From: Neomicrococcus aestuarii
GTDB lineage: Bacteria; Actinomycetota; Actinomycetes; Actinomycetales; Micrococcaceae
DNA length: 64,000 nt
Direction of reading: 5' to 3'
NCBI RefSeq assembly: GCF_014201135.1
Contig: NZ_JACHDR010000001.1
Span: 186,001 to 250,000, forward strand
This document shows positions 891 to 63,875 of the stretch, piece by piece. The translations under genes were made by a program, and so were the position numbers. The notes beneath the pieces were generated by a model that was not told the origin of the DNA, did not search any database, and worked only from the letters and a program-made list of their open reading frames with translations. The number at the start of each line of letters is the position of its first letter. Position 1 is the stretch's first letter.

Positions 891-2567
891 TTACGCGACT
901 GTGACTTCGGTCAAGGCGAACTTCAAGGTATCCAGTCCCACGGATCCTAGCGCGAGTGCTTCACGGTGGAATTTCTTGAGATCGAAAGCAGCTCCTTCGC
1001 TTAGCTTGACCTCATCCCGGAGATCGTTCCAGAGACGCTCACCAATCTTGTAGGCAGGCGCCTGACCAGCCCATCCCAAGTAGCGATTGAACTCGAAATC
1101 CAGCTGGCCGGGGGAGGTGTCCAGATTCTTCTTCAAGAATTCATAGCCCGCTTCCGGAGTCCAGACGCCGGAACCCCACCGTTCCGGGATTTCTAGTTCG
1201 CAGTGGACGCCAAGATCGAACACCACGCGCGCGGCCCTCATGCGCTGCGCATCGAGCATGCCTAGGTAATCGCCCAGGTCATCAAGGTAGCCAAGTTCTT
1301 GCATGAGCCGCTCGGCATATAAAGCCCAGCCTTCACCGTGGCCAGAAACCCAAATGAAGTTTCGACGCACGGAGTTCAGGGTTTCCTTGAGGTAAACGGC
1401 CGTGCCAATCTGCAAGTGGTGACCGGGGACGCCCTCGTGGTAGACCGTGCTGGTTTCTGACCACGTGAGGAACGTGTCTTCACCGGCGGGTACGGACCAC
1501 CACATCTGACCCGGGCGAGAGAAATCGTCGCTGGGTCCGGTGTAGTAAATGCCGCCCTCTTGCGTTGGCGCAATCATGCATTCGAGTTTGCGAACCGGTT
1601 CTGGAATATCAAAGTGTTGCTCACCCAACGCCGCTACGGCGGCATCGGACTTCTCCTGCATCCACGCCTTTAAAGCATCAGTGCCGTGCAGGACGCGCGA
1701 GGAGTCTGCATTGAGAAGTGCTTTGGCTTCCTCGATGGTGGCGCCAGGCTTGATGGCGTTGGCAACTCGTTCTTGCTCGGCAATGATTCGGTCCAGCTCG
1801 GCAACGCCCCAGGCGTAGGTTTCGTCGATGTCGATGGACGTTCCCAAGAACTCGCGGCTGGCAAGAAGGTAGCGTTCACGGCCGAAGGCATCCTTCTCCG
1901 GCGCAAGCGGTAGAAGCTCGGTCCGCAAGAACCCGGCAAACTGCTCGTACCCCGACTTTGCAGCTTCGGCACTTGCTTGGAGGCCGTCCGTGCGGAAAAT
2001 TTGGGGTGCGCTCGCCACTAGATCATCGAAGAAACCGCCAGCCTTGGTATAGTCCGCGATCTGCCCTAGGACAATGTCCACTTGGCGGCGGGCTGCAATT
2101 TTGCCGTCGCTTGCGCTTTTCTTGTACGACGCCGCAGCTTGGCTCAGTGCCTCAGGGATATTTTCGAGGCGCCCGGCAATGTGATCCCAGTCCTCGGCTG
2201 TGGCGGTGGGCATGAGATCCAGGACGGCGCGAATGTTCTGCGGAGCAGACGCAATGTTGTTCAGTGGCGTCCAGCCGGAATCGATGTTTTCAATCCATAG
2301 GCTCAGGCGTTCGTGAACGGCGTGCTGCGTGACCTGATCAATCGAGTCAACCGGAGTTGCTCCCATGATTTCGTCGAGAGCGCGTTGCATGAGATCCCGC
2401 ACTTGACGCTGGCCCTCGGGAGAACGGTCCTCATAGGCTTCTTCAAAACCTGGTAGCCCTAGCGATGCGCCGAATTCGGGGGACAGCTTCAGGTATTCAG
2501 CGAAGAACTTTTCGCAAGCTTCGTCGATAGCACTAGGTGCTCGTGTGATGGGCGTCTCAAGAGTCAT
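891..2567 (-). CDS. DUF885 family protein (predicted metal-dependent peptidase-like), 558 aa
   Basis: A full-length cytoplasmic protein of the DUF885 family. The signature HEGVPGHH is present around residue 385, followed by GEGWALYAERL near residue 420. HExxxGHH-type motifs and the Glu of the second motif suggest a zinc-dependent hydrolase of peptidase type, but no activity is established for this actinobacterial group. There is no signal peptide. The gene stands alone, convergent with nothing on its left and 60 bp downstream of the acyl-CoA carboxylase epsilon gene on the same strand. One copy of the dispersed GCGTCGTCGTAC-like motif lies in its coding sequence as the variant GCGGCGTCGTAC. 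Family assignment is confident; substrate is unknown. Confidence 0.85.
   Translation of the reverse strand: MTLETPITRAPSAIDEACEKFFAEYLKLSPEFGASLGLPGFEEAYEDRSPEGQRQVRDLMQRALDEIMGATPVDSIDQVTQHAVHERLSLWIENIDSGWTPLNNIASAPQNIRAVLDLMPTATAEDWDHIAGRLENIPEALSQAAASYKKSASDGKIAARRQVDIVLGQIADYTKAGGFFDDLVASAPQIFRTDGLQASAEAAKSGYEQFAGFLRTELLPLAPEKDAFGRERYLLASREFLGTSIDIDETYAWGVAELDRIIAEQERVANAIKPGATIEEAKALLNADSSRVLHGTDALKAWMQEKSDAAVAALGEQHFDIPEPVRKLECMIAPTQEGGIYYTGPSDDFSRPGQMWWSVPAGEDTFLTWSETSTVYHEGVPGHHLQIGTAVYLKETLNSVRRNFIWVSGHGEGWALYAERLMQELGYLDDLGDYLGMLDAQRMRAARVVFDLGVHCELEIPERWGSGVWTPEAGYEFLKKNLDTSPGQLDFEFNRYLGWAGQAPAYKIGERLWNDLRDEVKLSEGAAFDLKKFHREALALGSVGLDTLKFALTEVTVA
2124..2145 (-). repeat. Dispersed motif copy (variant), in DUF885 gene
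   Basis: On the minus strand this reads AAGC-T-GCGGCGTCGTAC, one base (G for T) different from the core 12-mer described in the findings. Here it encodes QAAASY within the DUF885 protein. Confidence 0.35.
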
Positions 2568-8233: not shown

Positions 8234-12635
<4,402 letters not shown>

Positions 12636-18556: not shown

Positions 18557-19408
18557 ATGACTGAAATCACCACGCGCCCTACTATTTCGCGCCGAAAAAT
18601 CGCCCAATCAATGGCGTGGACTGTTCCCGTCATTGCCCTCGCTGGAGCGGCGCCTGCAATGGCTGCGTCTCGGCTGAGTGGGTGTGCCACGTTGAAGTGG
18701 ACAGACACAACACTTTCTGGAACTCAGGGAACGAGCGGAATCCGAACTGGAAGCATCACCCTTCCTGAGGGATCGCTTGTGACCGTTAGGGTGACGCAGC
18801 ATCGGATCGGCGGGCAGCCGGGCCGCGACATCAACTCGGGAAAAGCCGCGCCGACTTCAATTTATGGTGACTTCAGTGCAACGGCGGCTGGGGCTCAGCA
18901 AGCGTGGGCGAACGGCGTTACAAGCAACCAGAGTTCGCTCTACGTGGTTGCAGCAGGAAGCAGTTCGTCAGTGCTCACCTTGAATCAAGGAACGTCAACG
19001 TCGGCGAATGGAACCACCCGCGGTCAAGAGACGCTTACGTTCTCCTTTGAGTCAAGTACTGGCAAGGTTCTTACGCCAACATCGATTACCTTCAACGCGT
19101 ATGACGTGACTAGTCAGCTCACCAATATGAACAATGCCGCCTACTACACGGATTCACTGAGCTTCTCTGGAGCGACGGCAACCTACGGGACGGCGGTAGG
19201 AGCCCCGTCTATTTACGAGGCGTTACCAGGAAGCTTGTCATCATTAGGGACGAAAACCTCAACCAGCGCGGGCAATTATATTCCGGTGACGCTTACGCCG
19301 ACATCCGCTACGCCAATCATCACGTATATCAACGCTAGTACAACTCCACTGGTTCCAAGCAGCAACTACCAATATGTAGGAATTGGTGATCTCAAGGTTT
19401 GCTTCTAG
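18557..19408 (+). CDS. Secreted protein of unknown function with Tat-type signal peptide, 283 aa
   Basis: I do not recognise a functional family. The N-terminus has a twin-arginine motif (SRRKIAQS, Arg12-Arg13), a hydrophobic core (WTVPVIALAGAAPA) and a likely cleavage site after AMA near residue 36. The mature part is Ser/Thr/Gly rich with beta-strand character, one early cysteine (LSGC) and one near the C-terminal end (KVCF), which could form a disulfide. Such proteins in Micrococcaceae are surface or secreted. The start at 18557 was chosen because it puts the twin arginines at the usual distance; an earlier in-frame start at 18461 lies on the promoter. It is divergent from tdh. Confidence 0.75.
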   Translation: MTEITTRPTISRRKIAQSMAWTVPVIALAGAAPAMAASRLSGCATLKWTDTTLSGTQGTSGIRTGSITLPEGSLVTVRVTQHRIGGQPGRDINSGKAAPTSIYGDFSATAAGAQQAWANGVTSNQSSLYVVAAGSSSSVLTLNQGTSTSANGTTRGQETLTFSFESSTGKVLTPTSITFNAYDVTSQLTNMNNAAYYTDSLSFSGATATYGTAVGAPSIYEALPGSLSSLGTKTSTSAGNYIPVTLTPTSATPIITYINASTTPLVPSSNYQYVGIGDLKVCF

Positions 19409-19420
19409 GAGCACAAAGTG

Positions 19421-19456
19421 TCGGCGCGGCGCCTAAACCCCCAGGCGTTGCGCCGA
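19421..19456 (+). terminator. Hairpin after the secreted protein gene
   Basis: TCGGCGC-GG-CGCCT and AGGCG-TT-GCGCCGA pair around a 7-8-nt C-rich loop with one 2-nt internal mismatch, 12 nt after the stop codon. No long T run follows, so the terminator call is moderate. Confidence 0.55.
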
Positions 19457-19526
19457 TATTCAGTTCAAATGACAAATGCACTGATAGGTGGCTACTAGAT
19501 CATGTGGTCGGCTCTGACGCGCCCCT

Positions 19527-20440
19527 TTATCTATAGCGTGCCTTCAACGCGTCACGGGGGAAGGCTTCGATCAAACCGTCGACGAGACTTTCGATTTGGA
19601 CCGGCTGTTCCCACGAAGCGATAAGGTTGTCAGTCGATCGTATGGCTACGTCGATCGACATTGAACGGGCTTCGATGCCGAAGGCGGAATAGTAGTCATG
19701 GAACTTATAACCTGCGCCTTCGACGGCACTACTAATTGGTGTCCAGATATTGGGGACGCCCAATGCGTCTGAGCACACCAATCCGTGGAGACTCGACGAA
19801 ACGATGAATTGACTCGCAGCAATTTGCACTAAGACCAATCGGGGATCAGCTGCGGGGTCGATAATTTGAATGTCTGGGGATTTTCCTCGGAACTCGTTGA
19901 GCTTGTCGGAATATTTTTCGCGAATGTGTGGTATGATACCTACACGATATCGCTTCTGGACTGATTGAAGGCTGGGGTACATTCGACTGACCAGAAGCCC
20001 GGGGTCTCCGAGTGGTATAGGCGAATCGCTGAGATGTTGGAGTCGCGCTCGCGTAAGAGCTCCCCGAACAGCGCACGGCGTCACTGCTGTTCCGCTCCAG
20101 GCCGGACCATCTTGGATATATCCGGATCCCAGATGTATGGATTTGTCCGATTTCGATACTTCTCGAATGTGTCAAGGACCTAACCAACGGCCGTAAGGTC
20201 TGCGCCTGCATAGTGTGCTTCCCTTACTGGCGCGCCCAATACAAAACTAGTGATGAGTGGGCTTAGAGCATCTCCAAAGTTTCGTCCGCTGTAATAACCC
20301 AGATGCACAGTTTGATGCCGTAGACCGTGTGGCACTTGGGACTTAGCCAGCATCAATGCACTGCGAATTTTCCATCGTGTCGCAGTAGAAATGGGGAGGC
20401 GTCGAGGTCTTATAGATTTAATCCTAGTCGGAGGAGCCAA
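19527..20440 (-). pseudogene. Polysaccharide pyruvyl transferase family pseudogene (stop codon plus 1-nt deletion)
   Basis: Reading from the ATG at 20438-20440, the frame gives a pyruvyl-transferase N-terminal half containing GYYSGRNFGDALSPLI, then meets a TAG at 20180-20182 after LTAVG. Past that stop the same frame continues sensibly (VLDTFEKYRNRTNPYIW) until 20128-20130. There, adding one G to the GGG run would restore the family sequence (WGSGYIQDG, then CAVRGALTRARL, GDPGLLVSR, YRVGIIPH and SSLHGLVCSDALGVPN). Two lesions, one a homopolymer length change, break a gene of about 305 codons. A sequencing error could explain the frameshift but not easily the stop. It would have decorated surface glycans with pyruvate ketals. 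The 205 bp upstream, to the next gene, show nothing else I can identify. Confidence 0.82.
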
Positions 20441-20645
20441 TGTTCCTGATCATGAAGATCCTGGTCGGTCTGGCAACATGATTCCCCGATCGGGGAATCG
20501 CGTTTTCGTTGGATTGAGGACTGGGGCATTGGCCGCGCTGACAAGTTCTAACTAACTTTCTGACTACCGATTATAATCTGGCTTGACAGATCAACTCTTC
20601 AAAACTGCCAGAAAATCAAGTTGAACTTGCTTGCTGAATATTTGC

Positions 20646-21506
20646 TTACCTGTGACCCCACAATTGCGGCTTCAAACGGTTATCGATCCGCAGATGAGTG
20701 TTGTATTTTAGACAAAGGGGCTCAAACACTTGCGACCCGATTCGTGTCCAAGGAACCGGGTACCCGTCCGTTGTTCCGTATGCGTCCCCTGGAAATTGTT
20801 CCAAGAGGTCTTGATAGTAGCTGACCCGCCTGTTCACTTCGTGAAACCAATCGTGAGTCAGCGGAGTGTTCGAACGCACTAGCTTGCCGCTAAATCCAAT
20901 GAGACGTGAATAATTTCGATGGATATCTCGAGCAAGCTCGCCTGGAAAGTATGTTGCCTCACTAACGCGTGGTAGCCGATAGCCTGCAATCCAAGCATCC
21001 GTTTCCTTCTCAAATGCTTCGAATGAATCCCTCCATGGAACTGGATGCTTTTTGATACCGGTAAAGCCCCCACCATGATGATGCATGAGGTATGCGTGGA
21101 TGTAATCAGATTGGTGGACTGCCGACAATAGTCTGAAGGCTGGGTGTAGGGGCGATCCCTCAACGATGAAAGTATCGAGATTCTGATAAGTAACTAGTTG
21201 CACGTCTAAGTCGCTATTCTGCGCCAGGATCGACTCATAACAAGAACGCCTATTATCCGACATTTCCTGTTCCCCGAACCATGCGCACCAAATGCGATGA
21301 GGGAACCCGCTCTTCACAGATGGGTCGTGGGTACTAGGGAGTGCCGTGAAATCCAGTGGGTAATTGCTGGCATCAAATTGGAAGTCGACGAACTTGCTCC
21401 GCAATCTATACCCGGTGTCGCGAAGCTCTTCTGCCAGGAATTTGGCTTTTTTCTTTCCGAGGAATAATTGATGCTTAATTTTTTTGATATTTGCGATGGC
21501 AGTCAT
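20646..21506 (-). CDS. Capsular polysaccharide / OCH1-like sugar glycosyltransferase, 286 aa
   Basis: It resembles glycosyltransferases with the sugar-binding DXD-containing fold (capsular polysaccharide synthesis type). Visible are PHRIWCAWFGEQEMS near residue 70, YESILAQNSDLDVQLVTY, SAVHQSDYIHAYLMHHHGGG near 145, and a C-terminal TRIGSQVFEPLCLKYN. In the family HGGG is usually followed by a D-x-D (for example YSDIK); here it reads GGGFTGIKK, so the metal-binding Asp seems to be missing or shifted. Part of the low-GC glycan island. No signal peptide or membrane segment. The acceptor is unknown. Confidence 0.7.
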   Translation of the reverse strand: MTAIANIKKIKHQLFLGKKKAKFLAEELRDTGYRLRSKFVDFQFDASNYPLDFTALPSTHDPSVKSGFPHRIWCAWFGEQEMSDNRRSCYESILAQNSDLDVQLVTYQNLDTFIVEGSPLHPAFRLLSAVHQSDYIHAYLMHHHGGGFTGIKKHPVPWRDSFEAFEKETDAWIAGYRLPRVSEATYFPGELARDIHRNYSRLIGFSGKLVRSNTPLTHDWFHEVNRRVSYYQDLLEQFPGDAYGTTDGYPVPWTRIGSQVFEPLCLKYNTHLRIDNRLKPQLWGHR

Positions 21507-21885
21507 AGAAATTAGATCTCCTCAGTGACAATGGGAACGCACTGCATTCGAATTTTAGTGGGTTTTATTAGGACTTGATGTGGAGGGCCCCACCATAAAG
21601 CGTAGGCCTGGTAACCACACTTGGGCCATTGTTTAGCGCTTAAAATGCTAGCGGGGTGAGCCGCACTGGTCTTTTGTGAGTTGCTCTGTGCCGTAGCACA
21701 GGAAGCTGAAACGCCTGAGAGACAAGAACAAATTCGAGGAACCGAACTTTCGACGGTGGCGATGATCATGCGGTAGCGAATGAGCCACAATGGTCTAGCT
21801 GAAGAAATGAACGTGAGTCTTCGTGGACCGTATGAGCACCTGAGGACAGCGATAACATTCCATAGTTGTCAGAACCAGCAAACAT
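21507..21885. other. 379-bp non-coding stretch in the glycan island
   Basis: No recognisable gene, RNA or repeat. An open frame on the minus strand (21512-21790) has no ribosome site and no family resemblance. A short inverted repeat, GTGC...GCAC near 21690-21706, is too weak to interpret. It may hold debris of a lost gene. Confidence 0.4.
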
Positions 21886-23142
21886 TTATGAACCGGACCG
21901 CTTCTGGTGCGCACGAAGTCGTCTAACGGCTGACTTAGACGTGTCGAACGGCGCCCGAGCGGCGTATTGCCAGTATATAAGGCGACGTTGAGAAGCTACT
22001 GCATTGCGGGCCGACGCCCAAGTCTTGATGGAGACTTCTAATTCCTTGACCATTCCCATGGATCGTTGTTTCAATTTTTCCGAATCTATTCGTGCGGACG
22101 AAATAGTTCCAAGAGACAAGGACTGCTGGACTGCGTCTGCAAGCTTTCTCGCCGAAACCCCGGCCGGCATGGTCGGATCCCAGTCGGCAGAATAGATTTC
22201 GGTCTTTGGTCTTTGCAAGCTCACCCGCGGAACATTGTAGGACGCCGCAACAATGCGCACGTGCAGGGAATGACCAATCACCAGCCGTGACTCAGCGATC
22301 AGTTGCACAATTTGTCGGGGATGACGGTCATGCGAGACAAGAACATCGATCCCTTCCAAGGCTGCCCGCATGCGTTCTGCGATGATGCTTAAGTTTTCAA
22401 GGCTGTCATGACCCGGCGAAACGCCAGCAGCGAACAAGATTACAGTGCGCAATCCGTGTGCTGCAGCCACTCGCGCAGCTTCAATCAGCCCAAGCGTGGT
22501 GGTTTCGAACCCTTGTTCATGGATGAACTCATCGGAGATCTGAACGGCCACTTGATCTTTCGCGGCCTTACCCAACTCTGGCCATGCCAATGAAATAGCA
22601 TGTATCGTATCTGGAGCGAGGCTCGCGCGAACTCCCCATTTGTGAGCTAATGCTAGCGATGGACGGTCGCGGACCGTGATTCCTTGGGAGCCTTTTAGCG
22701 CCTGATGTAGACGACGGCCGTGGGGAATTCTTAAGCTACCAGACGGCCAGATTCCCACGGAGCTCGCAAACACAGGAGTATCTCTGTTGAGCTTAGAATT
22801 TCGCACTTCGGGTACATATGGCAGGCCGGAGGGGTCAATACTGGCAATTTCCGGAACCCCGTTCATCAGCTGGGCTGCGCGTGCCATGGAGATCGGAACG
22901 GAAGCTCCTCCGGCCAGTACGAGTGCATCAAATCTCGTTGCTAACAAAGAGCTATCAAAATCTTTAATCGACAATCCCAAGAGCGCTTCTGTGTCGGCTG
23001 GAAATCTACTCAAGAGCCGAACCTGCAGGTCGTTTCCCCACGCGTCATTGAGTAACATCGGATACAGTAAGTCGCCGAAGTTGTCACGCTCAAATGCGCC
23101 CGTGAGCCCAATAATCAAGGGCAAATCAGTCTTAAGGATCAT
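21886..23142 (-). CDS. Polysaccharide pyruvyl transferase family protein, 418 aa
   Basis: Intact member of the family broken at 19.5-20.4 kb. Motifs: GLTGAFERDNFGDLLYPMLL at the N-terminus, ALVLAGGASVPIS near 90, VFASSVGIWPSG near 130, GITVRDRPSLALAHKWGV near 160, and a C-terminal LIAESRLVIGHSLHVRIVAASYNVPRV. The family transfers pyruvate from PEP to sugars of surface polymers, or is a degenerate relative of such enzymes. It has no signal peptide. An ORF-start ATG lies after a short AT-rich gap to the next glycosyltransferase, which runs in the same direction. Confidence 0.8.
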   Translation of the reverse strand: MILKTDLPLIIGLTGAFERDNFGDLLYPMLLNDAWGNDLQVRLLSRFPADTEALLGLSIKDFDSSLLATRFDALVLAGGASVPISMARAAQLMNGVPEIASIDPSGLPYVPEVRNSKLNRDTPVFASSVGIWPSGSLRIPHGRRLHQALKGSQGITVRDRPSLALAHKWGVRASLAPDTIHAISLAWPELGKAAKDQVAVQISDEFIHEQGFETTTLGLIEAARVAAAHGLRTVILFAAGVSPGHDSLENLSIIAERMRAALEGIDVLVSHDRHPRQIVQLIAESRLVIGHSLHVRIVAASYNVPRVSLQRPKTEIYSADWDPTMPAGVSARKLADAVQQSLSLGTISSARIDSEKLKQRSMGMVKELEVSIKTWASARNAVASQRRLIYWQYAARAPFDTSKSAVRRLRAHQKRSGS

Positions 23143-23208
23143 GCTACACAGTATAGGTGCGCAACTATGTATGAATCTAAGTAAATTATCGAAATGCGAT
23201 TAGAAACT

Positions 23209-23907
23209 TTAGCTCCGGACTCTATCCAAATACTCCACGGCCCGATGCCACCAACGGGTTCGATAGAGAGGAAGCAGGACGTGCCGAGCTATTCGCAGAG
23301 ACTCTTCTCGAGTCGCACTAAATTCAGGCGAACCGGAAGTGACGCTCATTTCAGTCTCAAATTTCGTATTCACCAAAACAGCGTTTGGCCTTCGTTGCAT
23401 TAGAAATAGCCAGTCGTCACCGCCCCAGATTTTCATCTGCTCAGGAATTTCCCAGTAATCGGTTCGTCTCAGGGCCATGAACGTCCCGTATCGACCTTTG
23501 AAGCTGCGAAATGGCGCAATGCGATGTCCAATCTTTCCTTGCTTAGGGTATCCAAAACAGCTTTCTGCCGGACCAGCCATGGAAAAACGACCTCGATGTA
23601 GGATTCGAGCACACTCATCAAATACTTCGGGACCGAAAAGCACATCGTCGTTAACGATTGCTAAGAATTCCGATTTGGCCTCGCGTGCACCAAGGTTCCA
23701 GGCCGGGTTCACGAAGATATTCTCGGTTTGTTGTAGGACTCTCATTTTCGGAGATGACCAATCAAGCGGTATAGGCGCATTGTTAATAACAAGGACTTCT
23801 TCTACAAGTGGATGACTTGCACTTCGCTCAACAACCTCGCGCAGAAGATGGGACCTTTGTAGCGTGGGAATGACTACTGAGAACTTTCCCGCAAACTGAC
23901 TGCTCAT
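23209..23907 (-). CDS. Family 2-like glycosyltransferase, 232 aa
   Basis: GT-A fold glycosyltransferase. The N-terminus FSVVIPTLQRS is typical, the DXD-type motif is IVNDDV near residue 90, and IWGGDDWLF near 165 is a probable acceptor/catalytic segment. It has a close paralogue at 36372-37094, sharing the blocks ENIFVNPAWNLGAREA, IWGGDDWLFL and SGSPEF. It sits with pyruvyl transferases, suggesting surface polymer synthesis. No membrane segment. Function is inferred from fold and neighbours only. Confidence 0.8.
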   Translation of the reverse strand: MSSQFAGKFSVVIPTLQRSHLLREVVERSASHPLVEEVLVINNAPIPLDWSSPKMRVLQQTENIFVNPAWNLGAREAKSEFLAIVNDDVLFGPEVFDECARILHRGRFSMAGPAESCFGYPKQGKIGHRIAPFRSFKGRYGTFMALRRTDYWEIPEQMKIWGGDDWLFLMQRRPNAVLVNTKFETEMSVTSGSPEFSATREESLRIARHVLLPLYRTRWWHRAVEYLDRVRS

Positions 23908-24334
23908 AATTCCATCCTATTTGCGGCTCCATCAATGCCACACATCACCGTAATATTCAGCGGTGAAACCGCGGGAAGGATTCCGGCAGGGATTTTCGTG
24001 TTTGCGACAAAAGCGGCGGAGTTGAAACTATGTCTAATCTCAGAAACGCGAATCACGATGCTACTACCCAGGGGATTGTTCGAAGTACTGTCCGGTCCAG
24101 TTTAGTTGCCTCGGTGCCAATTCGATCGAATCAGGTCGGTATCTGGTCAACGTCTGCACTTTGAACTTATCTTCGGCTCATACTTCAAATCATTCTCTGG
24201 CTACTGCTCAGGTTACGCGTGAAATACACGAGTACATACGTAAGTGCTCATTGGTTCAGGTAAATGTGATTACGGTAATTTGAATCTAAACGGACAAATT
24301 TAGCTATAGATGCATCAATAGCGAGCTGAAAGGT
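23908..24334. other. 427-bp non-coding stretch in the glycan island
   Basis: Divergent spacer between a minus-strand glycosyltransferase and the plus-strand glycosyltransferase pseudogene. It is A/T-richer than the core genome. A 44-codon frame at about 24031 has no family resemblance. I see no RNA gene, repeat or clear operator. Confidence 0.4.
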
Positions 24335-25237
24335 GTGAGCGCTGACAATATTAACATTTCCGTTGTCATTCCGGCCCGCCATGCTGCAGGTACGCTGGGC
24401 GCGCAACTGCGTGCGCTTCCTAGGCAGAAGGTAACAGTCATCTGGGAAGTGATTGTGGTCAGCAATAATTCCACAGGTAGAACGCAACAATTGGTTTCAG
24501 CCTGGGTACGACATTAGCCAGTTCCTCTGCGCGTCGTTGAGGCGAACGAAAAGCGTGGCTCTGCGTACGTGCGTAACGCTGGCGTGACTAAGGCGAAGGG
24601 TGATGTGATTGCTTTCTGCGACGCGGACGACCAAGTGGGAGTCGGCTGGCTACAAGCGGCCTGAGATGCGCTGAACTTGGATTTGGACTTCGTTACCGGC
24701 TTCGTGCACGGATATTCGGCTCAACCCTCGGTTGCAGAGTACACACAAGTAATCCGGGAAACGAACACAGCGAAAATTCCAGTTCCAAATTGCAACTGCG
24801 CCTTTATCAGGGAGGCTTTTCTGTATATCGGCGGTTTCGATGAGTCCTTCGCCAAGTATGGACGTGAAGATAGCGAACTTTCTATTAGAGCTCGGCTTGC
24901 TGGCCTTCGAATAATCTTCTACCCTCCCATGCAGGTGAAGTTCTCACCGACAGAAAAGACATTGGTGCTCTCTCGAAAATTATTGCAATCCGGATAGGCC
25001 GACGTCCGCAGGTGGGCGAGACATCCCGAAGTTTTCCCAGGCTAAATGAATCTGTCTCTGGTAACTCATCAATTTACGAGCTGGGTTACTGGAGCCGTGA
25101 AAAACCCGGCTCTGATAAAGAATCGACAATACGTTCGACAAGGGCTCACGAGCTTCGGAAACCTCGTCGGCGTTCTCAAAGGAAAACGAAATGGCTGGGG
25201 GAGCCCAGAACTCATTCCCCCAGCCGACCGCAAATAG
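24335..25237 (+). pseudogene. Family 2 glycosyltransferase pseudogene with four in-frame stops
   Basis: One continuous reading frame of about 300 codons is interrupted by TAG (24515-24517), TGA (24662-24664), TAG (24995-24997) and TAA (25043-25045), with no frameshift. The translation between stops is clearly a GT2 enzyme: ISVVIPARHAAGTLGAQLRALP, EVIVVSNNST, RGSAYVRNAGV, DVIAFCDADDQV (the DXD), NCAFIREAFLYIGGFDE and REDSELSIRARLAGLR. All three stop codons occur, so recoding or suppression is not a good explanation; it is a decaying gene. It ends 3 bp before the convergent hutH stop. Confidence 0.85.
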
Positions 25238-25240
25238 TCA

Positions 25241-26770
25241 CTACCGCGCCAGCAGTGCCCCGCTCTTCACCAGCTGCGTAACGGCTTCAATCTCTGGCGA
25301 GATGTAGCGGTCTGGACCTGGTCCTTCCACTACGGATCGCACAATGCGGCGAGTGGCGGTGATGGACGGCGAAGATTGCGAAGAGTCAAGGCCTCCGTCG
25401 CGCATATCCAAACCACGAGCAGCCGTCAGAATCTCGATGGCCAGGACGCGCTCGGCGCCATCGATCGCCTTGCGGAGTTTGAGTCCCGCGGCCCAACCCA
25501 TGGACACATGGTCTTCCTGCATCGCGGAAGATGGGATGGAATCAACAGACGCAGGCACGGCGAGGCGCTTGAGTTCAGAGACGATTCCAGCTGCGGTGTA
25601 CTGGGCGATCATGTGACCGGAGTCCACTCCTGGATCGTCGGCAAGGAATGGGTTCAGCCCATGGGAGCGGGCCTTATCCAAGAAGCGGTCCGTGCGGCGC
25701 TCGGACATGGACGCGAGGTCAGCAACGGCGATGGCCAAAAAGTCCAACACATATCCAACAGGAGCGCCGTGGAAGTTGCCGTTGGACTCCACGCGGCCGT
25801 CGGTGGTGACTACTGGGTTGTCGATTGCGGAACCGAATTCTGCGGTCGCCACGGACTGTGCGTGCGCCAATGTGGAGCGCACGGCTCCGTGAACTTGAGG
25901 CGCGCATCGTAAGGAATACGCATCCTGAACGCGCGTAAATGAGTGTTCGCCGTTCTTGACGGACTCGATCAAGGCAGAGCCTGCCAGGTGACCGGTGATG
26001 GCGGCGGCTGATTCGGCCTGCCCAAACTGTGGGCGCAAGGCGTGCAGATCGGCGGCGAAAACCGCGTCCGTTCCCAAGAGGCCTTCAACGCTCATGGCCG
26101 CAGCTAAGTCTGCAATGGCAATGAGTCGCTCAATGTCAATGGAGGCCATCGCAAGCATGCCGAGCATGCCGTCCGTGCCGTTGATGAGGGCCAAGCCCTC
26201 CTTCTCGGCAAGTTCAACAGGTTCAATACCTGCGGCAGCCAAAGCCTCGGCGGCTGGCATCGATACGCCCGAAGCGTCCCGCACGGTTCCTTCACCCATG
26301 ACAGCCAGGGCGCAGTGTGACAAGGGCGCCAGGTCGCCGGAACAACCCAGCGATCCATACTCGCCGACCACGGGCGTGATTCCGGCGTTCAACAGCGCCG
26401 CGTACGTCTCTGCAACCACCGGACGCACACCGGTTCGGCCTGTCACCATGGTGTGCAAACGATTCAGCATGAGACCGCGAATCACCTCGCGGTCCACTTC
26501 AGCACCGCTCGACGCCGCATGCGAACGAATCAACGAACGCTGCAACTGCGCGCGCATCGGAACCGGAATATGGACGGTTGCAAGGGCGCCGAAACCAGTG
26601 GAAACGCCATAGTGAGGACGCTCGTCATTGATCAAAGCATCGATCACCGCGCGCGACTGCTCCATCGACGCGAGAGCCTCCGGAGAGAGCTCAATCGGTC
26701 GATTCTCGCGCGCAACCTGCTGCAGTTCGAGAGCGGTCAGCGGCGCGGGGGAGATCAGTAGCGTTTCCAT
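25241..26770 (-). CDS. hutH: Histidine ammonia-lyase, 509 aa
   Basis: Deaminates histidine to urocanate, the first step of histidine use as carbon and nitrogen source. It has YGVSTGFG (Tyr54) near the active site and the MIO cofactor loop GSLGCSGDLAPLSH, with Cys143-Ser144-Gly145 in place of the common Ala-Ser-Gly; the CSG form is familiar in actinobacterial HutH. Also NGTDGM near 195 and SIPSSAMQEDHVSMG near 410. Length is normal. It lies on the opposite strand from hutU-hutF-hutI and follows the substrate-binding lipoprotein gene by 101 bp. Confidence 0.95.
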   Translation of the reverse strand: METLLISPAPLTALELQQVARENRPIELSPEALASMEQSRAVIDALINDERPHYGVSTGFGALATVHIPVPMRAQLQRSLIRSHAASSGAEVDREVIRGLMLNRLHTMVTGRTGVRPVVAETYAALLNAGITPVVGEYGSLGCSGDLAPLSHCALAVMGEGTVRDASGVSMPAAEALAAAGIEPVELAEKEGLALINGTDGMLGMLAMASIDIERLIAIADLAAAMSVEGLLGTDAVFAADLHALRPQFGQAESAAAITGHLAGSALIESVKNGEHSFTRVQDAYSLRCAPQVHGAVRSTLAHAQSVATAEFGSAIDNPVVTTDGRVESNGNFHGAPVGYVLDFLAIAVADLASMSERRTDRFLDKARSHGLNPFLADDPGVDSGHMIAQYTAAGIVSELKRLAVPASVDSIPSSAMQEDHVSMGWAAGLKLRKAIDGAERVLAIEILTAARGLDMRDGGLDSSQSSPSITATRRIVRSVVEGPGPDRYISPEIEAVTQLVKSGALLAR

Positions 26771-26823: not shown

Positions 26824-26872
26824 TGAGCTGCGGCGTCGTACCGCTAAATAGTACGACGCCGCCTGCTTGCGT
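26824..26872. terminator. Hairpin built from two inverted copies of the dispersed motif
   Basis: The arms GCGGCGTCGTAC (26830-26841) and GTACGACGCCGC (26851-26862) are perfect complements with a 9-nt loop. It lies just after the lipoprotein stop codon and before hutH, so it can act as an intercistronic terminator or mRNA-stabilising hairpin. The right arm extends to ACGCAAGC-AG-GCGGCGTCGTAC on the minus strand, and the left arm reads GAGC-T-GCGGCGTCGTAC on the plus strand. Both are therefore copies of the dispersed motif. Confidence 0.65.
26851..26872 (-). repeat. Dispersed motif copy abutting the lipoprotein stop codon
   Basis: The minus strand reads ACGCAAGC-AG-GCGGCGTCGTAC, matching the long form of the motif except for a single G-for-T in the core. 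Intergenic. Confidence 0.5.
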
Positions 26873-27888
26873 TAGCTTTCAGCTAGCAGTCCGCTGATGT
26901 CGGGTGCCTGGGAAATGACCCCGAACTCTTGGGCCGCAGCCGCGAGGGTGGTCAGGGCCTCTTGATTGACCTTTTCGTTCCACTTGGACATGACAACCTT
27001 CTCGGCGAGCTCGGGGGTGAGCTTCGCGTAATCCTGAATGATTTCGCGGAAGGCATCCTCGTTGGCGTTCGCATACGCGAAGGCCTCGGTGAGTGCCGCG
27101 CGGAACATACCGATCACGTCGGCCTTTTCCGTGAGGGTCTGCTCCGAAGTGAAGAAGAACGCGGAATCGAAGTTCTCCGCCATGTCCGTCATGGGGCTCG
27201 CTACAACCTTGCCGCCGGCTTCAAGAATCTGAGTGCGGAAAGGCTCGGTGGTCCAGGCTGCATCCACGTCACCGCGGTCAAGGGCGGCTGGCATCTGCGG
27301 GTAGGGGAGCTCCACGAAGCTGAGCTTCGACGGATCGCCGCCTGCCTTCTTGACCGAGCTGCGGATGGTGATCTCAGCGAAGTTGTTGAGCGCGTTGACG
27401 GCGATCTTCTTGCCTTCAAGATCCTTGGGGGCAGTGATTCCGGCGGCAGGCTTCGCGGCCACCTCGGTGACATCCGCGCCAGGCTTGTTCGTGGAACTCG
27501 AACCGTTGTGGATGACCTTGATGGGCAAGCCCTTGTCCTTGGCGATGAGCAAGGACACCACGTTGGAGTAGCCAATCACGTAGTCGCCCGTGGTGACTGC
27601 CGGAAGGATGGCTGCGCCACTTTCCGCGATCTGGATGTCCAGTTCAAGGCCGTGCTTTTCGAAGAAGCCTTGCTTCTGTCCCAAGTAGATGGGAGCCACG
27701 TCGGTGATCGGCAGGACGCCGATGGTGATCTTGGTGAGCGTTCCGCCAGCGCCGGAGCTGGAGCTAGCGCCGCTGCTGGACGCGGATGGAGAGCCTTGAC
27801 CGCAAGCTGAGAGCGCAAGCGCTCCTGCTGCTGAGAGGGCGATGGCGCCGAAAGTGCGGCGTGTAACTGCTGAGTTGAGCGAGTTCAT
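26872..27888 (-). CDS. ABC transporter substrate-binding lipoprotein, NMT1/SsuA-like, 338 aa
   Basis: Extracytoplasmic binding protein. The signal has a twin-arginine (TRRTF, Arg10-Arg11) and a lipobox LSAC with Cys29; a Ser/Ala/Gly linker follows. The mature domain is NMT1/THI5-like: ITIGVLPITDVAPIYLGQKQGFFEKHGL, then GYSNVVSLLIAKDKGLPIKVI, and LDRGDVDAAWTTEPF near 210. This group binds small organic ligands such as nitrate, sulfonates, or pyrimidine or other thiamine precursors. No permease or ATPase gene is adjacent. The gene sits between hutH and the divergent IclR regulator, so a hut-linked ligand (histidine, urocanate or related) is a fair guess but unproven. Confidence 0.85.
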   Translation of the reverse strand: MNSLNSAVTRRTFGAIALSAAGALALSACGQGSPSASSSGASSSSGAGGTLTKITIGVLPITDVAPIYLGQKQGFFEKHGLELDIQIAESGAAILPAVTTGDYVIGYSNVVSLLIAKDKGLPIKVIHNGSSSTNKPGADVTEVAAKPAAGITAPKDLEGKKIAVNALNNFAEITIRSSVKKAGGDPSKLSFVELPYPQMPAALDRGDVDAAWTTEPFRTQILEAGGKVVASPMTDMAENFDSAFFFTSEQTLTEKADVIGMFRAALTEAFAYANANEDAFREIIQDYAKLTPELAEKVVMSKWNEKVNQEALTTLAAAAQEFGVISQAPDISGLLAES

Positions 27889-41644: not shown

Positions 41645-41959
41645 CTAGAGATCGCGCAGAATACGCGAGCGAGCGTCGTCGTACTCCGCAGCCGAAATCG
41701 CTTGAGAATCACGCAAGGCATCCAACTCCGCAAGCCGCTCCTGAGCGGACTTTGGCGCACTATTGCGCAGGTTGTTGCCGAACTGCCCCGCAATGTCAGT
41801 CTGCATTGTGACGGGATCGTAGCCCTGGCGCCGGGCGGCGGAGGCGTTGCGGACCATCACCACAATCACAAAGATGAAGGCAGCAACAACCAGTAAGCTC
41901 ACCAGCCCAAAAATCAGAGGAAACCAGGCTGGGGGTCCAAAGCTGTCTGCTCCAAACAT
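41645..41959 (-). CDS. SHOCT-domain membrane protein, 104 aa
   Basis: N-terminal membrane segment (PLIFGLVSLLVVAAFIFVIVVMV, in part) followed by a cytoplasmic linker (ARRQGYDPVTMQTDIAGQ) and a C-terminal SHOCT domain (RLAELDALRDSQAISAAEYDDARSRIL, seen as ERLAELDALRDSQAI then EYDDARSRIL). SHOCT domains are short oligomerisation modules. The ATG at 41959 has AAGGA 7 nt upstream; longer versions would read into the upstream non-coding region. It carries an exact copy of the dispersed 12-mer at its 3' end. Confidence 0.8.
   Translation of the reverse strand: MFGADSFGPPAWFPLIFGLVSLLVVAAFIFVIVVMVRNASAARRQGYDPVTMQTDIAGQFGNNLRNSAPKSAQERLAELDALRDSQAISAAEYDDARSRILRDL
41663..41684 (+). repeat. Dispersed motif copy, at the 3' end of the SHOCT gene
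   Basis: Reads ACGCGAGC-GA-GCGTCGTCGTAC with the exact 12-mer at 41673-41684. On the coding strand it gives EYDDARSR. Confidence 0.5.
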
Positions 41960-51461: not shown

Positions 51462-51481
51462 ACCGAGCTGCGTCGTCGTAC
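51462..51481 (+). repeat. Dispersed motif copy between sfnG and metN
   Basis: Reads CCGAGC-T-GCGTCGTCGTAC, with the exact 12-mer at 51470-51481, in the 157-bp intergenic gap of the sulfur operon. Confidence 0.55.
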
Positions 51482-53144: not shown

Positions 53145-54323
53145 TTATTCAGTGGCGAGTGTCCACGATCCGTCCGCCTGGACGATGATCAACGACGGTC
53201 CGGATGACAGGGGTACCGTGCCGGAGTAGTTGCCGATCTCGTTGACCAGCAAGCCCATGTTGAAGAGCTCGTCGTTTTCCTCGAAGACAGCGAAGTTGCC
53301 TTCGCCCCTATGTGTTGCGGTGAGCGTTGCCGAAGAACCTTCGTACAACATCACGGCGTCACCGGAACCCTTCGATGCGAAAGCCTTGGCGTTGCCGAGC
53401 GTTTCGATGCTCAGAGTCCACGGACCGCTCGCTTGAACCTGAAGGCTCTTCACCTCTTGGAACGCGTTTACGCCGAGGGCCGTGGTGCCCTTGTAGGAGC
53501 CGATAGTGTTCACGAGCAGATCGGTGGAATCATTCGCCTCATCCAGTCCGATCACCGCGAAGTTGCCTTCACCGTTGTAGGTTGCCGTCACCATCGCGGT
53601 GGTCACGCCAGCGGGCAACTTGATGACGGTATCGCCCGTGCCTTTCTTGGTGATGGTGGCGAACTCGCCGAACTTTCCGGCGGCCCAGGCGGCGGCACCA
53701 GAGCCTTCGGGCTCCTCGGCCAAAGTTTCTTCAGCAACTGCTTCTTCAGCAACCGTTTCCTCGGCTGCTGTTTCTTCCGCTGCCGGAGTTTCGGTCACGG
53801 TCGTTTCAACGGCAGTTTCCGCAGAAGCCGAGGCCGCATCAGCCGGAGCTGACGACGCGGCCGCAGCAGGCGTCGTCGTACTGGAATCTGAAGCCGAAGA
53901 ACTAAACGAGGACGACGTACCGCCATCAAAGTTCTGCTGGCCGGTGATCATGCCGAACACCACGACGATTGCCGAGACAATCCACGCGACCTTCTTTTGC
54001 TTCTCATAGCCTTCAAGGCGACGACCCGCCTTGTCCCGCGTGGCACCCGCGAGGGTCATGATCAGATCCACGAGGTACCAGATGCCGAGCCCACCGAGGG
54101 TCACGAGCTTGAGAACGCCCGTGCCGATCTTGCCGAGGTAGAAGCGGTCGGCGCCGAAGTAGCCGATCAACAAGGACAAGAGCCACGTGACAAGGAAGGA
54201 CTTGCCAGAAGCCGAAGGATACTGCTGCGGGCCAGCCGCGTAGGGATTAGTCGCGTATGGATTTGGTTGTTCGGCGTAGTCCGGAGAGGAAGCTGCGCCG
54301 GAAGGATACGAAGTGTTAGACAC
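53145..54323 (-). CDS. TM2-domain protein with a long Ala/Glu linker and two extracytoplasmic repeats, 392 aa
   Basis: A Tyr/Pro/Asn-rich N-terminus (NPYATNPYAAGPQQYP) precedes a TM2 domain (LVTWLLSLLIGYFGADRFYLGKIGTGVLKLVTLGGLGIWYLVDLI in segments, residues about 45-90). A third membrane segment is near 112-128. A Ser/Ala/Thr linker follows, then repeats of A-E-E-T/A-V-A (ETAAEETVAEEAVAEETLAEE in part). The C-terminal part holds two copies of a beta-rich repeat, each running G(T/S)GD-V...GEGNFAVxxx-DE...LLVN-IG-Y-GT...GPWTL/GSWTL. I see no known enzyme signature. A copy of the dispersed motif lies in the linker. Confidence 0.78.
   Translation of the reverse strand: MSNTSYPSGAASSPDYAEQPNPYATNPYAAGPQQYPSASGKSFLVTWLLSLLIGYFGADRFYLGKIGTGVLKLVTLGGLGIWYLVDLIMTLAGATRDKAGRRLEGYEKQKKVAWIVSAIVVVFGMITGQQNFDGGTSSSFSSSASDSSTTTPAAAASSAPADAASASAETAVETTVTETPAAEETAAEETVAEEAVAEETLAEEPEGSGAAAWAAGKFGEFATITKKGTGDTVIKLPAGVTTAMVTATYNGEGNFAVIGLDEANDSTDLLVNTIGSYKGTTALGVNAFQEVKSLQVQASGPWTLSIETLGNAKAFASKGSGDAVMLYEGSSATLTATHRGEGNFAVFEENDELFNMGLLVNEIGNYSGTVPLSSGPSLIIVQADGSWTLATE
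53863..53881 (+). repeat. Dispersed motif copy in the TM2 protein linker
   Basis: Reads GCAGC-AG-GCGTCGTCGTAC with the exact 12-mer at 53870-53881. On the coding strand it gives STTTPAAA, inside the low-complexity linker. Confidence 0.5.
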
Positions 54324-57165: not shown

Positions 57166-59070
57166 ATGGCGGGACTGATCAAGCGTGAAGATATTGATGA
57201 AGTCCGCGCCCGCAGTGACATCAAAGAAGTCATTGAAGGCTACGTCACCCTCCGTTCCGCAGGCATCGGTTCCTTCAAGGGACTATGCCCCTTCCACGAT
57301 GAACGCTCACCTTCGTTCCACGTCCGCCCACAAGTAGGCACGTACCACTGCTTCGGTTGCGGCGAATCCGGAGACGTCATCTCCTTCGTTATGAAGATGG
57401 ACCACACTACGTTCTCCGAAACCGTAGAGCGCCTGGCAGGTCGCTTGGGAATCGAGCTGCATTACGAAGACGGCGGTACCGGTCCCTCAAAGCAAGAAAC
57501 CGGCCGGCGTCAACGCCTGCTGGACGCCCACAAGATTGCCGAAGAATTCTTCCGTGCCCAGCTCCAAGATCGTCGTGCGGTCACCGCTCAACGGTTCCTC
57601 GCCGGTCGCGGCTTTGATCCCGCTGCAGCCGCTCAATTCGGTGTGGGATACGCGCCTCAAGGCTGGGACGCACTTCTGAAGCACCTGACGGGCAAAGGCT
57701 TCACTACCGAGGAACTTCAAGCCACCGGAATGTTCTCCGAAGGCCAGCGCGGAATCTATGACCGCTTCAGGGGTCGACTCATCTGGCCTATTCGAGATCT
57801 CTCCGGTGCCACCATCGGCTTCGGCGCGCGAAAGCTCTTTGACGATGACAAAGGCCCCAAGTACCTCAACACCCCAGAGACTCAGCTCTACAAAAAGAGC
57901 CAAGTCCTGTATGGAGTAGACCTCGCCAAGCGAGCCATCACCAAGAACCGTGAACTCGTGGTGGTGGAAGGCTACACAGACGTCATGGCCTGCCACCTCT
58001 CCGGCATCGACACCGCGGTAGCAACCTGTGGCACTGCCTTCGGAACCGACCACATCAAAATTGTTCGTCGACTGCTTTCCGATGACGGCACCGGCGGCTC
58101 CGTGATTTTCACCTTCGACGGTGATGCCGCCGGCCAAAAAGCCGCCCTCCGCGCGTTCGATGAAGACCAACGCTTCCTGGCCCAAACCTACGTGGCCGTG
58201 GAGCCCAACGGGCTGGACCCGTGCGATCTTCGCCAAGAACGCGGGGCCACCGCCGTTCGGGAACTCATCGATTCCAAACGCCCGCTCTTCGAATTCGCCA
58301 TCAAAGCGAGCCTGAAGAAGTTCGACCTCGACACCGTTGAAGGTCGCGTCAACGCGCTACGCGCGGCAGCGCCTATCGTGGCCGCCATCCGCGATCACGC
58401 GATGCGTCCCGCTTACGCGCGCGAGCTCTCCAGCTGGCTGGGCATGGACCTGAACGAAGTGAACCGAGCAGTCCACCTCGCAAGCCAGCAACCCCGCAAA
58501 CTGAGCGATGCCGCGGACGCAAGCAGCGTCGTCGTACGGGAAGAAAACGAGCCCGCACCCAACCCGGGGGAGGCGCCTCGGCCGTTGCTGGAGAAACCGG
58601 ACGCCCGCGATCCCATGGTGCGCATGGAACGTGAGTCGCTCGAAGTGGTGCTTCAACAGCCTGGGCTCGTGACGGAAGCGCAATGGCATGCGTTCTACGG
58701 ATCGCGATTTGTGGCCCCTGCACACACTGCCATTCATGAGGCGATTCGGACTGCTGCGGCCGCGGGGACTGCCGCGGCGCTCTGGGTAGAAGCCATCCGT
58801 GAGGCTGCTCCAGCGGAACTGCACAACTACGTGTCCGAACTGGCCGTGCAGCCTCTGCCTGCACGCAACGAGGATGCGCTCGCGCGGTACTGCTCGGACA
58901 TCATGTCCCGGCTCCAAGAGCTACAGATTCGCCATCGCAAGGAAGATTTGCTGGGGCGTTTGCAACGTCTTGATCCCACCGCGGACGGCGAGAAATTCAC
59001 GCAGTTGAACCGGGAGCTTTTCGAGCTTGAGCTGGAACGACGAGCCCTCCACGAAACAGATCAGTCCTAG
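57166..59070 (+). CDS. dnaG: DNA primase, 634 aa
   Basis: Makes RNA primers for replication. N-terminal zinc finger FKGLCPFHDERSPSFHV...YHCFGCGESGDVI (Cys-His-Cys-Cys, residues about 38-66), RNA-polymerase domain (GYAPQGWDALLKHL), Toprim motifs LVVVEGYTDVMACH near 265 and FTFDGDAAGQKAALRAFD near 320, and a C-terminal helicase-binding domain. Between the core and the C-terminal domain is a Pro/Glu-rich linker (REENEPAPNPGEAPRP, residues about 457-475) that carries a dispersed-motif copy. Length is normal. Together with ligA it shows this is core chromosome. Confidence 0.96.
   Translation: MAGLIKREDIDEVRARSDIKEVIEGYVTLRSAGIGSFKGLCPFHDERSPSFHVRPQVGTYHCFGCGESGDVISFVMKMDHTTFSETVERLAGRLGIELHYEDGGTGPSKQETGRRQRLLDAHKIAEEFFRAQLQDRRAVTAQRFLAGRGFDPAAAAQFGVGYAPQGWDALLKHLTGKGFTTEELQATGMFSEGQRGIYDRFRGRLIWPIRDLSGATIGFGARKLFDDDKGPKYLNTPETQLYKKSQVLYGVDLAKRAITKNRELVVVEGYTDVMACHLSGIDTAVATCGTAFGTDHIKIVRRLLSDDGTGGSVIFTFDGDAAGQKAALRAFDEDQRFLAQTYVAVEPNGLDPCDLRQERGATAVRELIDSKRPLFEFAIKASLKKFDLDTVEGRVNALRAAAPIVAAIRDHAMRPAYARELSSWLGMDLNEVNRAVHLASQQPRKLSDAADASSVVVREENEPAPNPGEAPRPLLEKPDARDPMVRMERESLEVVLQQPGLVTEAQWHAFYGSRFVAPAHTAIHEAIRTAAAAGTAAALWVEAIREAAPAELHNYVSELAVQPLPARNEDALARYCSDIMSRLQELQIRHRKEDLLGRLQRLDPTADGEKFTQLNRELFELELERRALHETDQS
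58517..58537 (+). repeat. Dispersed motif copy in the dnaG interdomain linker
   Basis: Reads ACGCAAGC-A-GCGTCGTCGTAC, the best match to the long consensus with the exact 12-mer at 58526-58537. It encodes ASSVVVR at residues about 451-457. Confidence 0.6.
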
Positions 59071-62405: not shown

Positions 62406-63875
62406 ATGACTACTGACACGCCACTGTCCTTGCGCCGCGGCTTGCCGCGCACTCCCGGCGGCGATCCGTGGCCGCCCGCTGTTGCTTCTGCGGCGACCAG
62501 CACGGTTGCGGCAAGTACAAAACCTGAGTACGACGACGCAGCCCCGGCCCTGCAGATTTCCTTACGTCAGGGCTTGCCTCGCGTTGCCGGAGGTCCCGCG
62601 TGGCCGCCGCTGGACGCAACGGCAACTTCGACTCCTGTGGTTCCGGCACCGGCCGAACCGATCGAGGTCAAACAGGAAGTCTCTCAGCCGGTCGTCGCAG
62701 AGCCTGCAGTCGATGAGCCCGTCTTTGCTGAGCCCGCAGTTGCCAAACCACTCGTTTCAGAGCCCGTTGTGGCAGAACCTGCAGTGGCTCAGGCTTCGGT
62801 TGCGGCGCCGGTCGTTGCACCACCGGTGGTAAGCCCGGCGACACCGCAGGTGGAGTCGCGGACGCAAGCTGCGTCGTCGTCCTCGCCGGTAAAGAAGGCA
62901 GAAGCGAACCCAAAGCCGGCAGGCAAACCCGAACCGAAGCAGGCCGAACCGAAGCGATACGGCGCCTACACGCTGAGGCAGTGGATTGGAACCATCGCCG
63001 CGGTCATCGTGGGACTCCAGATTCTGGCGCTTGTGGTGGTGCTCGTGGCACGCGGGCTGATGCAGATCGACGCAGTGCAGAACTTCGTGCAGACGTACCC
63101 GGGGCATTCCGAACTGCCCGAGAGCGCGCCCGTGGGAGTGCCCGCGTGGCTCGCGTGGCAGCACTTCTTGAACATGTTTTTGATGGTGCTGATTATTCGA
63201 TCGGGTCTGCAGGTTCGCCGCGAAACTAAGCCGGCCGCGTACTGGACGCCGAAGGGATCGTCCAAGAAAGTCAGCCTGACCATTTGGCTACACCAGGCGC
63301 TCGATGTGTTGTGGCTGGTGAACGGGCTGATCTTTGTGATTCTGCTGTTCGCCACGGGGCAGTGGATGAAGATTGTGCCCACCAGTTGGGATGTGTTCCC
63401 GAACGCCATCTCCGCAGGGCTTCAGTACGCGACGCTCTACTGGCCCACCGAGAACGGATGGGTGCATTACAACGGGCTTCAGCAACTCACGTACTTTGTC
63501 ACGGTGTTCATCGCTGCGCCGCTGGCTGCGATCACCGGTTTCCGCATGAGCACGCTGTGGCCGGAAAAGAACAAGACGCTCGCGAAGCTCTACCCAGCGG
63601 AGATCGCCCGCAAACTGCATTTCCCCGTCATGATCTACTTCGTCGCGTTCATTGTGGTGCACGTGGCCCTGGTCTTCGCCACGGGTGCACTGAGGAATCT
63701 CAACCACATGTTTGCCGCTCGCGGCTCGGTGGATGCGGCGGCGCTCGCGGGGGATTGGACCGGATTCTGGTTCTTCGTGGGAGCCATGGTGATCATCGCT
63801 GGCGCGTGGATCGTAGCGCGACCCAGTGTGGTGGCGCCGATCGCTCGACTGTTCGGCAAAGTGAGTAGTCGATAA
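62406..63875 (+). CDS. Cytochrome b-type membrane protein with N-terminal proline-rich repeats, 489 aa
   Basis: The first 165 residues are disordered. They carry two copies of an 'LRxGLPRxxGGxxWPP' box (residues about 7-24 and 56-73) and an Ala/Val/Pro/Glu repeat (AEPAVDEPV, AEPAVAKPL and similar). The remainder has five or six membrane segments with histidines suited to heme ligation (WQHFLNMF, WLHQALD, KLHFPVMIYF, FIVVHVALVF), resembling cytochrome b561/b6-type domains. The gene follows etfA by 5 nt. It may pass ETF electrons to the quinone pool, an inference from context. It contains two copies of the dispersed motif. Confidence 0.8.
   Translation: MTTDTPLSLRRGLPRTPGGDPWPPAVASAATSTVAASTKPEYDDAAPALQISLRQGLPRVAGGPAWPPLDATATSTPVVPAPAEPIEVKQEVSQPVVAEPAVDEPVFAEPAVAKPLVSEPVVAEPAVAQASVAAPVVAPPVVSPATPQVESRTQAASSSSPVKKAEANPKPAGKPEPKQAEPKRYGAYTLRQWIGTIAAVIVGLQILALVVVLVARGLMQIDAVQNFVQTYPGHSELPESAPVGVPAWLAWQHFLNMFLMVLIIRSGLQVRRETKPAAYWTPKGSSKKVSLTIWLHQALDVLWLVNGLIFVILLFATGQWMKIVPTSWDVFPNAISAGLQYATLYWPTENGWVHYNGLQQLTYFVTVFIAAPLAAITGFRMSTLWPEKNKTLAKLYPAEIARKLHFPVMIYFVAFIVVHVALVFATGALRNLNHMFAARGSVDAAALAGDWTGFWFFVGAMVIIAGAWIVARPSVVAPIARLFGKVSSR
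62528..62545 (-). repeat. Dispersed motif copy, N-terminal linker of cytochrome b protein
   Basis: The minus strand reads GGGGC-T-GCGTCGTCGTAC with the exact 12-mer at 62528-62539. The gene encodes EYDDAA here (residues about 41-46). Confidence 0.45.
62862..62882 (+). repeat. Dispersed motif copy, second, in cytochrome b protein linker
   Basis: Reads ACGCAAGC-T-GCGTCGTCGTCC, one base off at the penultimate position. It encodes TQAASSSS in the disordered linker, in a different frame from the dnaG and fusion-gene copies. Confidence 0.5.

Follow-up and report, generated by a model that had tools for sequence, protein, structure and literature searches.

The window, by which we mean the whole stretch of 64,000 nucleotides that was analysed, carries on its minus strand a gene for an NMT1-like (PF09084) substrate-binding lipoprotein and, downstream of it, hutH, which encodes an aromatic amino acid lyase (PF00221), and between the two genes there is a hairpin at 26830-26862 (Table 1). 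Direct reading of the sequence gives a perfect stem (12/12) and a loop of 9 nt, and the arms are head-to-head copies of a 12-base motif, that is, the hairpin is a paired copy of the dispersed motif GCGKCGTCGTAC. On the minus strand it begins 9 bp past the TAA of the lipoprotein gene and leaves 59 bp to the start of hutH (26770), and an earlier note on this DNA, which had described a perfect 12-bp hairpin lying right after a stop codon, was correct on both points. The folding energy is -28.6 kcal/mol on the minus strand (z -6.75) and -27.2 on the plus strand (z -6.29), with none of 200 shuffles as good, and outside the stem, across an unpaired gap, there are three more outer pairs on the minus strand and four on the plus strand.

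Table 1. The hairpin, the genes on either side of it and the other exact motif copies in the window
Feature	Position	Strand	Flanks
hutH, aromatic amino acid lyase (PF00221), downstream of hairpin	25241..26770	-	
Left arm, motif copy GCGGCGTCGTAC	26830..26841	+	gtgagct left, cgctaaat right
Loop CGCTAAATA (TATTTAGCG on minus strand)	26842..26850	.	
Right arm, inverted copy of GCGGCGTCGTAC, reads GTACGACGCCGC	26851..26862	-	acgcaagcag left, tattta right
NMT1-like (PF09084) substrate-binding lipoprotein gene, upstream of hairpin	26872..27888	-	
Exact motif copy GCGGCGTCGTAC	2124..2135	-	
Exact motif copy GCGTCGTCGTAC	8407..8418	-	
Exact motif copy GCGTCGTCGTAC	41673..41684	+	
Exact motif copy GCGTCGTCGTAC	51470..51481	+	
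Exact motif copy GCGTCGTCGTAC	53870..53881	+	
Exact motif copy GCGTCGTCGTAC	58526..58537	+	
Exact motif copy GCGTCGTCGTAC	62528..62539	-	

Next to the hut cluster, at 18400-25200 of the window, are polysaccharide-type genes (pyruvyl transferase PF04230, glycosyl transferase PF00535, and a capsular synthesis match below the cut-off). The codon-based caller finds no gene in this stretch, which looks like a variable island.

The motif is abundant. There are 299 exact copies of GCGKCGTCGTAC in the 2.89-Mb genome to which the window belongs, or about 103 per Mb, and 0 of the reversed control. The window itself has 39 matches at up to two mismatches where 10.4 were expected, and none of 100 shuffles reached 39, which bears out the earlier description of the motif as dispersed. 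A chromosome sample of 404 kb, made up of 17 stretches and the window, contains 54 exact copies and 79 more with one mismatch (133 together, with 14 for the reversed control), and in the samples of this genome, of a congener (G001), of Actinotignum timonense and of three A. timonense relatives the 10-mer that is most over-represented comes from the motif.

The 54 exact copies in the sample are divided into 33 genic and 21 intergenic ones, with intergenic sequence being 12.5% of the total and the density between genes 4.4 times that within genes. The gene calls came from a home-made caller, and a rerun with other choices of start gave 24 intergenic exact copies in place of 21. In 200 synonymous-codon shuffles the mean number of genic exact copies was 2.2 and the maximum 7, so that in this genome the 33 observed are not a matter of codon bias.

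The copies share flanks, roughly AAGC(T/G) ahead of the core and T behind it, with an A-rich tract at a distance of three bases. Agreement over seven flank positions is 4.5 for intergenic exact copies, 3.4 for genic exact copies and 1.6 for random places; the flanks are graded and soft, and not a copied unit. The uptake signal sequence (USS) of Haemophilus influenzae likewise has a core followed by an A/T-rich flank at a fixed distance, similar to the flank measured here. In one stretch three motif copies (L047:4957, 5697 and 7501) lie within about 2.6 kb with near-identical flanks, which suggests a locally duplicated segment.

We also sampled 60 kb of the 60.9-kb contig C2 of the same genome, which looks plasmid-like. 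In these 60 kb about 20 motif copies were expected at up to one mismatch and none was found (the reversed control also being 0), with one intergenic copy of the looser core CGNCGTCGTRC present (expected 0.07). Uptake tags are expected to be missing from plasmids. The plasmid matches of C2 are to Citricoccus, Arthrobacter and Pseudarthrobacter, and an IS110-family transposase region (L036:6691-7570) is 91.6% identical to its counterpart on a plasmid of Pseudarthrobacter defluvii. A phage origin of the motif was rejected, as a search of viral_contigs with the extended motif gave 0 exact matches.

With regard to pairing, the whole genome has a single place with the exact pair of GCGG arms (spacer 3-30) and four places where two copies of the 8-base core CGTCGTAC are inverted to each other (spacer 0-30), and more inverted pairs with mismatches were found in the sampled stretches. 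In the 404 kb there are eight inverted pairs in which the arms stand 6-14 bp apart and one or both of them have no more than one mismatch. The same sample has no tandem pair. All eight are intergenic and each lies past at least one stop codon; the search for other inverted pairs at 3' ends that the earlier note had proposed was thus successful. Chance placement of 33 intergenic copies would give 0.17 pairs. Four of the eight were pre-selected, namely the pair in the window and those in the stretches at 450-470, 530-550 and 1490-1510 kb, which were picked for known exact pairs. Among the other four (L039:2517, L040:1035, L041:19335 and L050:2691) three have both arms within one mismatch, L040:1035 having one arm with two mismatches, and that number was reached in 13 of 20000 simulations. 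Three genic pairs in this genome were left out, L045:4485 (two arms with two mismatches each), L050:16365 (gap 58) and L051:19117 (gap 26).

At the same spot in the congener there is an inverted pair for three of the six pairs compared, the hut pair, L041:6474 and L041:19335. At L039:2517 the congener has a single copy, at L040:9441 only one flank could be matched, and at L040:1035, where the spot crosses the end of the fetched stretch, no pair is listed. Both the arms and the loop of the hut-site pair are changed in the congener, where 11 of 12 bases pair. The fourth base of both arms is G in our genome and T in the congener at the hut pair, and T and G respectively at L041:6474, and with the change made on both arms pairing is retained at these two places; at L041:19335 the arms in the congener are unlike each other at the fourth base. 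More widely, of the 10 genomes in which the 12-mer is present over 30 times 8 have exact-core pairs, as do 5 of the 48 others, and pairs of the reversed control are found in 3 of the 58.

Among 59 genomes counted, GCGKCGTCGTAC has 238 copies in the congener and 0-53 in 57 other relatives. The 16-base form AGCNGCGKCGTCGTAC has 122 copies in the window's genome and 0-4 in each of 395 others from the order, in a draw that did not include the congener. Of nine genic sites that could be aligned between the congeners four are unchanged (control 11%, p 0.013), and conservation of motif sites between them is moderate. A comparison of five intergenic sites (three unchanged, two with one change) was set aside because 67% of the control was also unchanged, probably owing to RNA genes.

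A collection scan for the paired form gave eight stretches from seven organisms. Two stretches are in A. timonense (Actinomycetaceae) and the other matches are in Kribbella, Streptomyces jumonjinensis, Nocardioides, Cellulomonas and two MAGs; counts of the 12-mer against the control in four paired-form organisms are 80/11 (Kribbella), 22/10, 69/6 and 35/1. A. timonense has 136 exact copies with a control of 2, and in 320 kb it has 83 copies at up to one mismatch with a control of 6. The six genomes that come first among its relatives, for which the degree of kinship is not given, include four with 101-137 copies, one with 33 and one with 2. The genome with two motif copies is G422, which has one core pair and is a candidate for loss of the putative receptor or of competence.

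The looser core CGNCGTCGTRC was looked for in twelve sample sets, sampled unevenly at 60-404 kb per genome. Observed and expected intergenic numbers are 29/0.51 in the window's genome, 17/0.40 in the congener, 29/0.39 in A. timonense, 10/0.12 in three of its relatives, 13/0.40 in G456, 11/0.15 in G009, 18/0.36 in G025 and 12/0.75 in G021, so that in 8 of the 12 chromosome sample sets intergenic copies are at 16-83 times the Markov expectation. A ninth set, G010, rests on three copies (3/0.08), and with it variants of the conserved core are present in related lineages in 9 of the 12 sets. No excess is seen in G002 (0/0.18) or G011 (0/0.08), and G038, with 1/0.19 between genes and 14 genic copies where the null maximum is 12, is doubtful and was not counted as a carrier. 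The G021 count for the 12-mer (53) comes in part from high GC, and the case for G021 therefore rests on its intergenic excess.

The differences between lineages sit at the base before the core and at the fourth base of the core. The window's genome, the congener and Actinotignum have GCGT, GCGG or GCGC, G456 has mostly nCGG, G025 mostly and G021 most often CCGC, and G009 has A/T/G-CGC; G009, G021 and G025 are other genera within the window's family. These lineage variants look like dialects of CGNCGTCGTRC. One of the eight stretches sampled from G456, 20 kb long, has a local repeat array in which the palindrome TAAAGGCCTTTA was counted 14 times over the two strands.

We suggest that the motif is a candidate uptake-sequence-like self tag, spread chromosome-wide and with dialects, akin to the DNA uptake sequences (DUS) of Neisseriaceae and the USS of Pasteurellaceae. 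We put the probability of this reading at roughly 55%, which makes it the most likely of those considered, and its main rival is a binding site for an intracellular chromosomal protein. In the mechanism that we infer, naturally competent cells would bind extracellular DNA by a surface receptor with a preference for the motif, putatively a Tad/Flp minor pilin or ComEA, and the bound DNA would be drawn into the cell by way of the Flp pilus and ComEC, to be recombined there. Alleles bearing the motif would be imported more often, and copies would then accumulate over the chromosome in both orientations, settling at permissive spots within and between genes and not on plasmids, and lineages would drift into dialects. 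Where two copies came to lie inverted past a stop codon they would give the mRNA a stable 3' hairpin, which may be kept as a terminator or mRNA end, and the hairpin at hutH would be one such secondary use.

For DUS and USS there are descriptions of genic copies, of inverted pairs among part of the copies and of dialects, and an orientation bias has not been reported (PMC1939737, PMC3630211, PMC12616744). As with those sequences, our motif is over-represented chromosome-wide, has copies both in and between genes and inverted pairs at gene 3' ends, and shows dialects with a conserved core. The likeness to the DUS of Neisseriaceae, as presented in PMC3630211, lies in the short tag in many copies, genic and intergenic, the terminator-linked inverted pairs and the dialects around a fixed core. 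The differences are that the core is CGNCGTCGTRC, whereas that of DUS is CTG, that the phylum is another one, that copies are fewer (103 per Mb in the window's genome, as compared with the 2245-3603 per genome that the same paper gives for some Neisseriaceae), and that the pilus is of the Tad/Flp type, with no ComP known. The USS of Pasteurellaceae is similar in having some inverted pairs, genic copies and no orientation bias reported (PMC1939737, PMC12616744), and differs in sequence and phylum; its receptor is described in PMC12616744 as predicted but not proven. PMC1939737 argues that inverted repeats make up the smaller part of USS and DUS and questions termination as their chief function, and both points apply to our motif as well.

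Competence machinery is also present, although it does not discriminate. The window's genome encodes ComEC (825 aa) and ComEA (SLBB, helix-hairpin-helix), and it has a tad-1-like locus that adjoins prfB, with a Tad-pilin match just below the cut-off, and a tad-2-like locus with TadE and a DUF4244 protein, which by position and size would be Flp-like. In A. timonense ComEC is accompanied by a pair of tad-like loci, one with prfB beside it. Transformation of Micrococcus luteus requires both tad loci (PMC4322843), and a review (PMC6370729) notes comEA and comEC in M. luteus and no comG cluster; a term search of three M. luteus papers gave no mention of an uptake sequence. The Flp-pilus transformation of M. 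luteus, with tad-1, tad-2, comEA and comEC, is thus matched by two tad-like loci and comEC in both our genome and A. timonense, and by comEA in the former. However ComEC is present in all 12 genomes searched, carriers and non-carriers of the motif alike, a T2SSE-family ATPase is present in all 12 genomes of a second set, and in G011, which has two ATPases of this family, the 60 kb sampled are free of the motif. These proteins are too widespread for the machinery to predict the motif.

The rival that survives best, unlikely as we think it, is that the motif is the site of a chromosome-specific intracellular protein, such as a nucleoid-associated, segregation or recombination factor, dispersed and with lineage variants. 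It also predicts spread over the chromosome, absence from the plasmid-like contig and a shared core with variants, but leaves unexplained the inverted pairs past stop codons in the absence of tandem pairs, and also the low counts in sister genera. Sites of the Chi or KOPS type would have a strong orientation bias linked to replication, whereas exact copies genome-wide are 154 forward and 145 reverse (p 0.64), and in the 404-kb sample the numbers are 70/63 at up to one mismatch, or 30/32, 13/14 and 27/17 when the sampled chromosome is divided into three, and 35/19 for exact copies (p 0.04). Orientation in the sample is mixed but not quite even. A strong replication-linked orientation bias is thus excluded and a weak one is not, the position of the replication origin not having been located. 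The weak plus-strand excess beyond 1.7 Mb (14/4 for exact copies, p 0.03; 27/17 at up to one mismatch) leaves some room for an oriented site, but a Chi/KOPS-type site is not favoured.

It is improbable that the motif is a terminator or 3'-end hairpin module and nothing else, with the single copies being decayed or half elements. The position of all eight sampled pairs past a stop codon fits such a module, as do the three pairs between convergent genes that have 3-6 T behind the plus-strand stem and the retention of the hut hairpin in the congener despite changes in both arms. However single copies dominate, with 16 paired arms as against 133 copies at up to one mismatch in the sample, and many copies are genic, on either strand and above the codon-shuffle expectation. 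An intrinsic (Rho-independent) terminator consists of a GC-rich hairpin followed by a T-tract, and there is no T-tract beside the hut hairpin on either of the two strands checked; nor was this hairpin, with its loop of 9 nt, in the list from a terminator scan that covers loops of 3-8 only. A canonical terminator at the hut hairpin is thus not supported, and it is the three convergent-gene pairs that fit one.

REP/BIME elements are dispersed, form hairpins and lie 3' of genes. The earlier note had placed the hut pair among them, with a role in mRNA stability or termination, and spread would be by a RAYT (Y1) protein. The dispersal of the motif, its enrichment between genes and the inverted pairs that form hairpins at 3' ends do resemble such elements, but the unit is not an imperfect palindrome (by inspection the self-complementary part of the 12-mer is GTAC only), 33 of the 54 sampled exact copies are genic and exceed the synonymous-codon null, and the flanks are graded with no copied unit. 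Moreover the RAYT domain Y1_Tnp (PF01797) is found in none of eight genomes, which include those of the window, the congener and A. timonense, with an E. coli control positive. We therefore regard the REP/BIME assignment as largely refuted and very unlikely, and what stands of the earlier interpretation is that two inverted copies of a dispersed motif are paired at the 3' end of a gene, and that there are other such pairs. A functionless codon or oligonucleotide bias, for example from runs of Asp-Asp or Val-Val codons, has in its favour the 3-periodic core and a high-GC background (a coding null of 17.9 in G021, and the Kribbella count of 80 with its control of 11), but can be dismissed given the intergenic excess over the Markov expectation in eight sets and, for the window's genome, the synonymous shuffles, which refute it.

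To return to the uptake-sequence-like self tag, a 2025 paper (PMC12616744) has only Neisseriaceae and Pasteurellaceae known to use such tags, and another from 2025 (PMC12040237) treats sequence-specific uptake by ComP as an outlier among transformable microbes. This last point counts against the self tag, as do the failure of the machinery to predict the motif, the slightly uneven orientation in the sample, the one loose-core copy on C2, the smaller number of copies than in some Neisseriaceae and the moderate conservation of sites between the congeners. Searches of the open-licence literature gave no account of uptake sequences in Actinomycetota or in other Gram-positives. The wider proposal is that of sequence-specific uptake in Gram-positive Actinomycetota, in which a CGNCGTCGTRC dialect family in at least two actinobacterial families would be read by a Tad/Flp competence pilus or by ComEA and reused as paired 3'-end hairpins; we hold this tentatively, at a little short of even odds. 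The Actinomycetota carriers are monoderm cells, unlike the Neisseriaceae.

If the proposal is correct the system would be either convergent with those of DUS and USS or an older trait that has been patchily lost. Self-tagging would then have arisen at least one more time, in cells that lack an outer membrane and have another kind of pilus, or be much older. The motif would also provide a third, independent system for testing why uptake sequences exist, and a practical handle for transforming the Actinomycetota that carry it.
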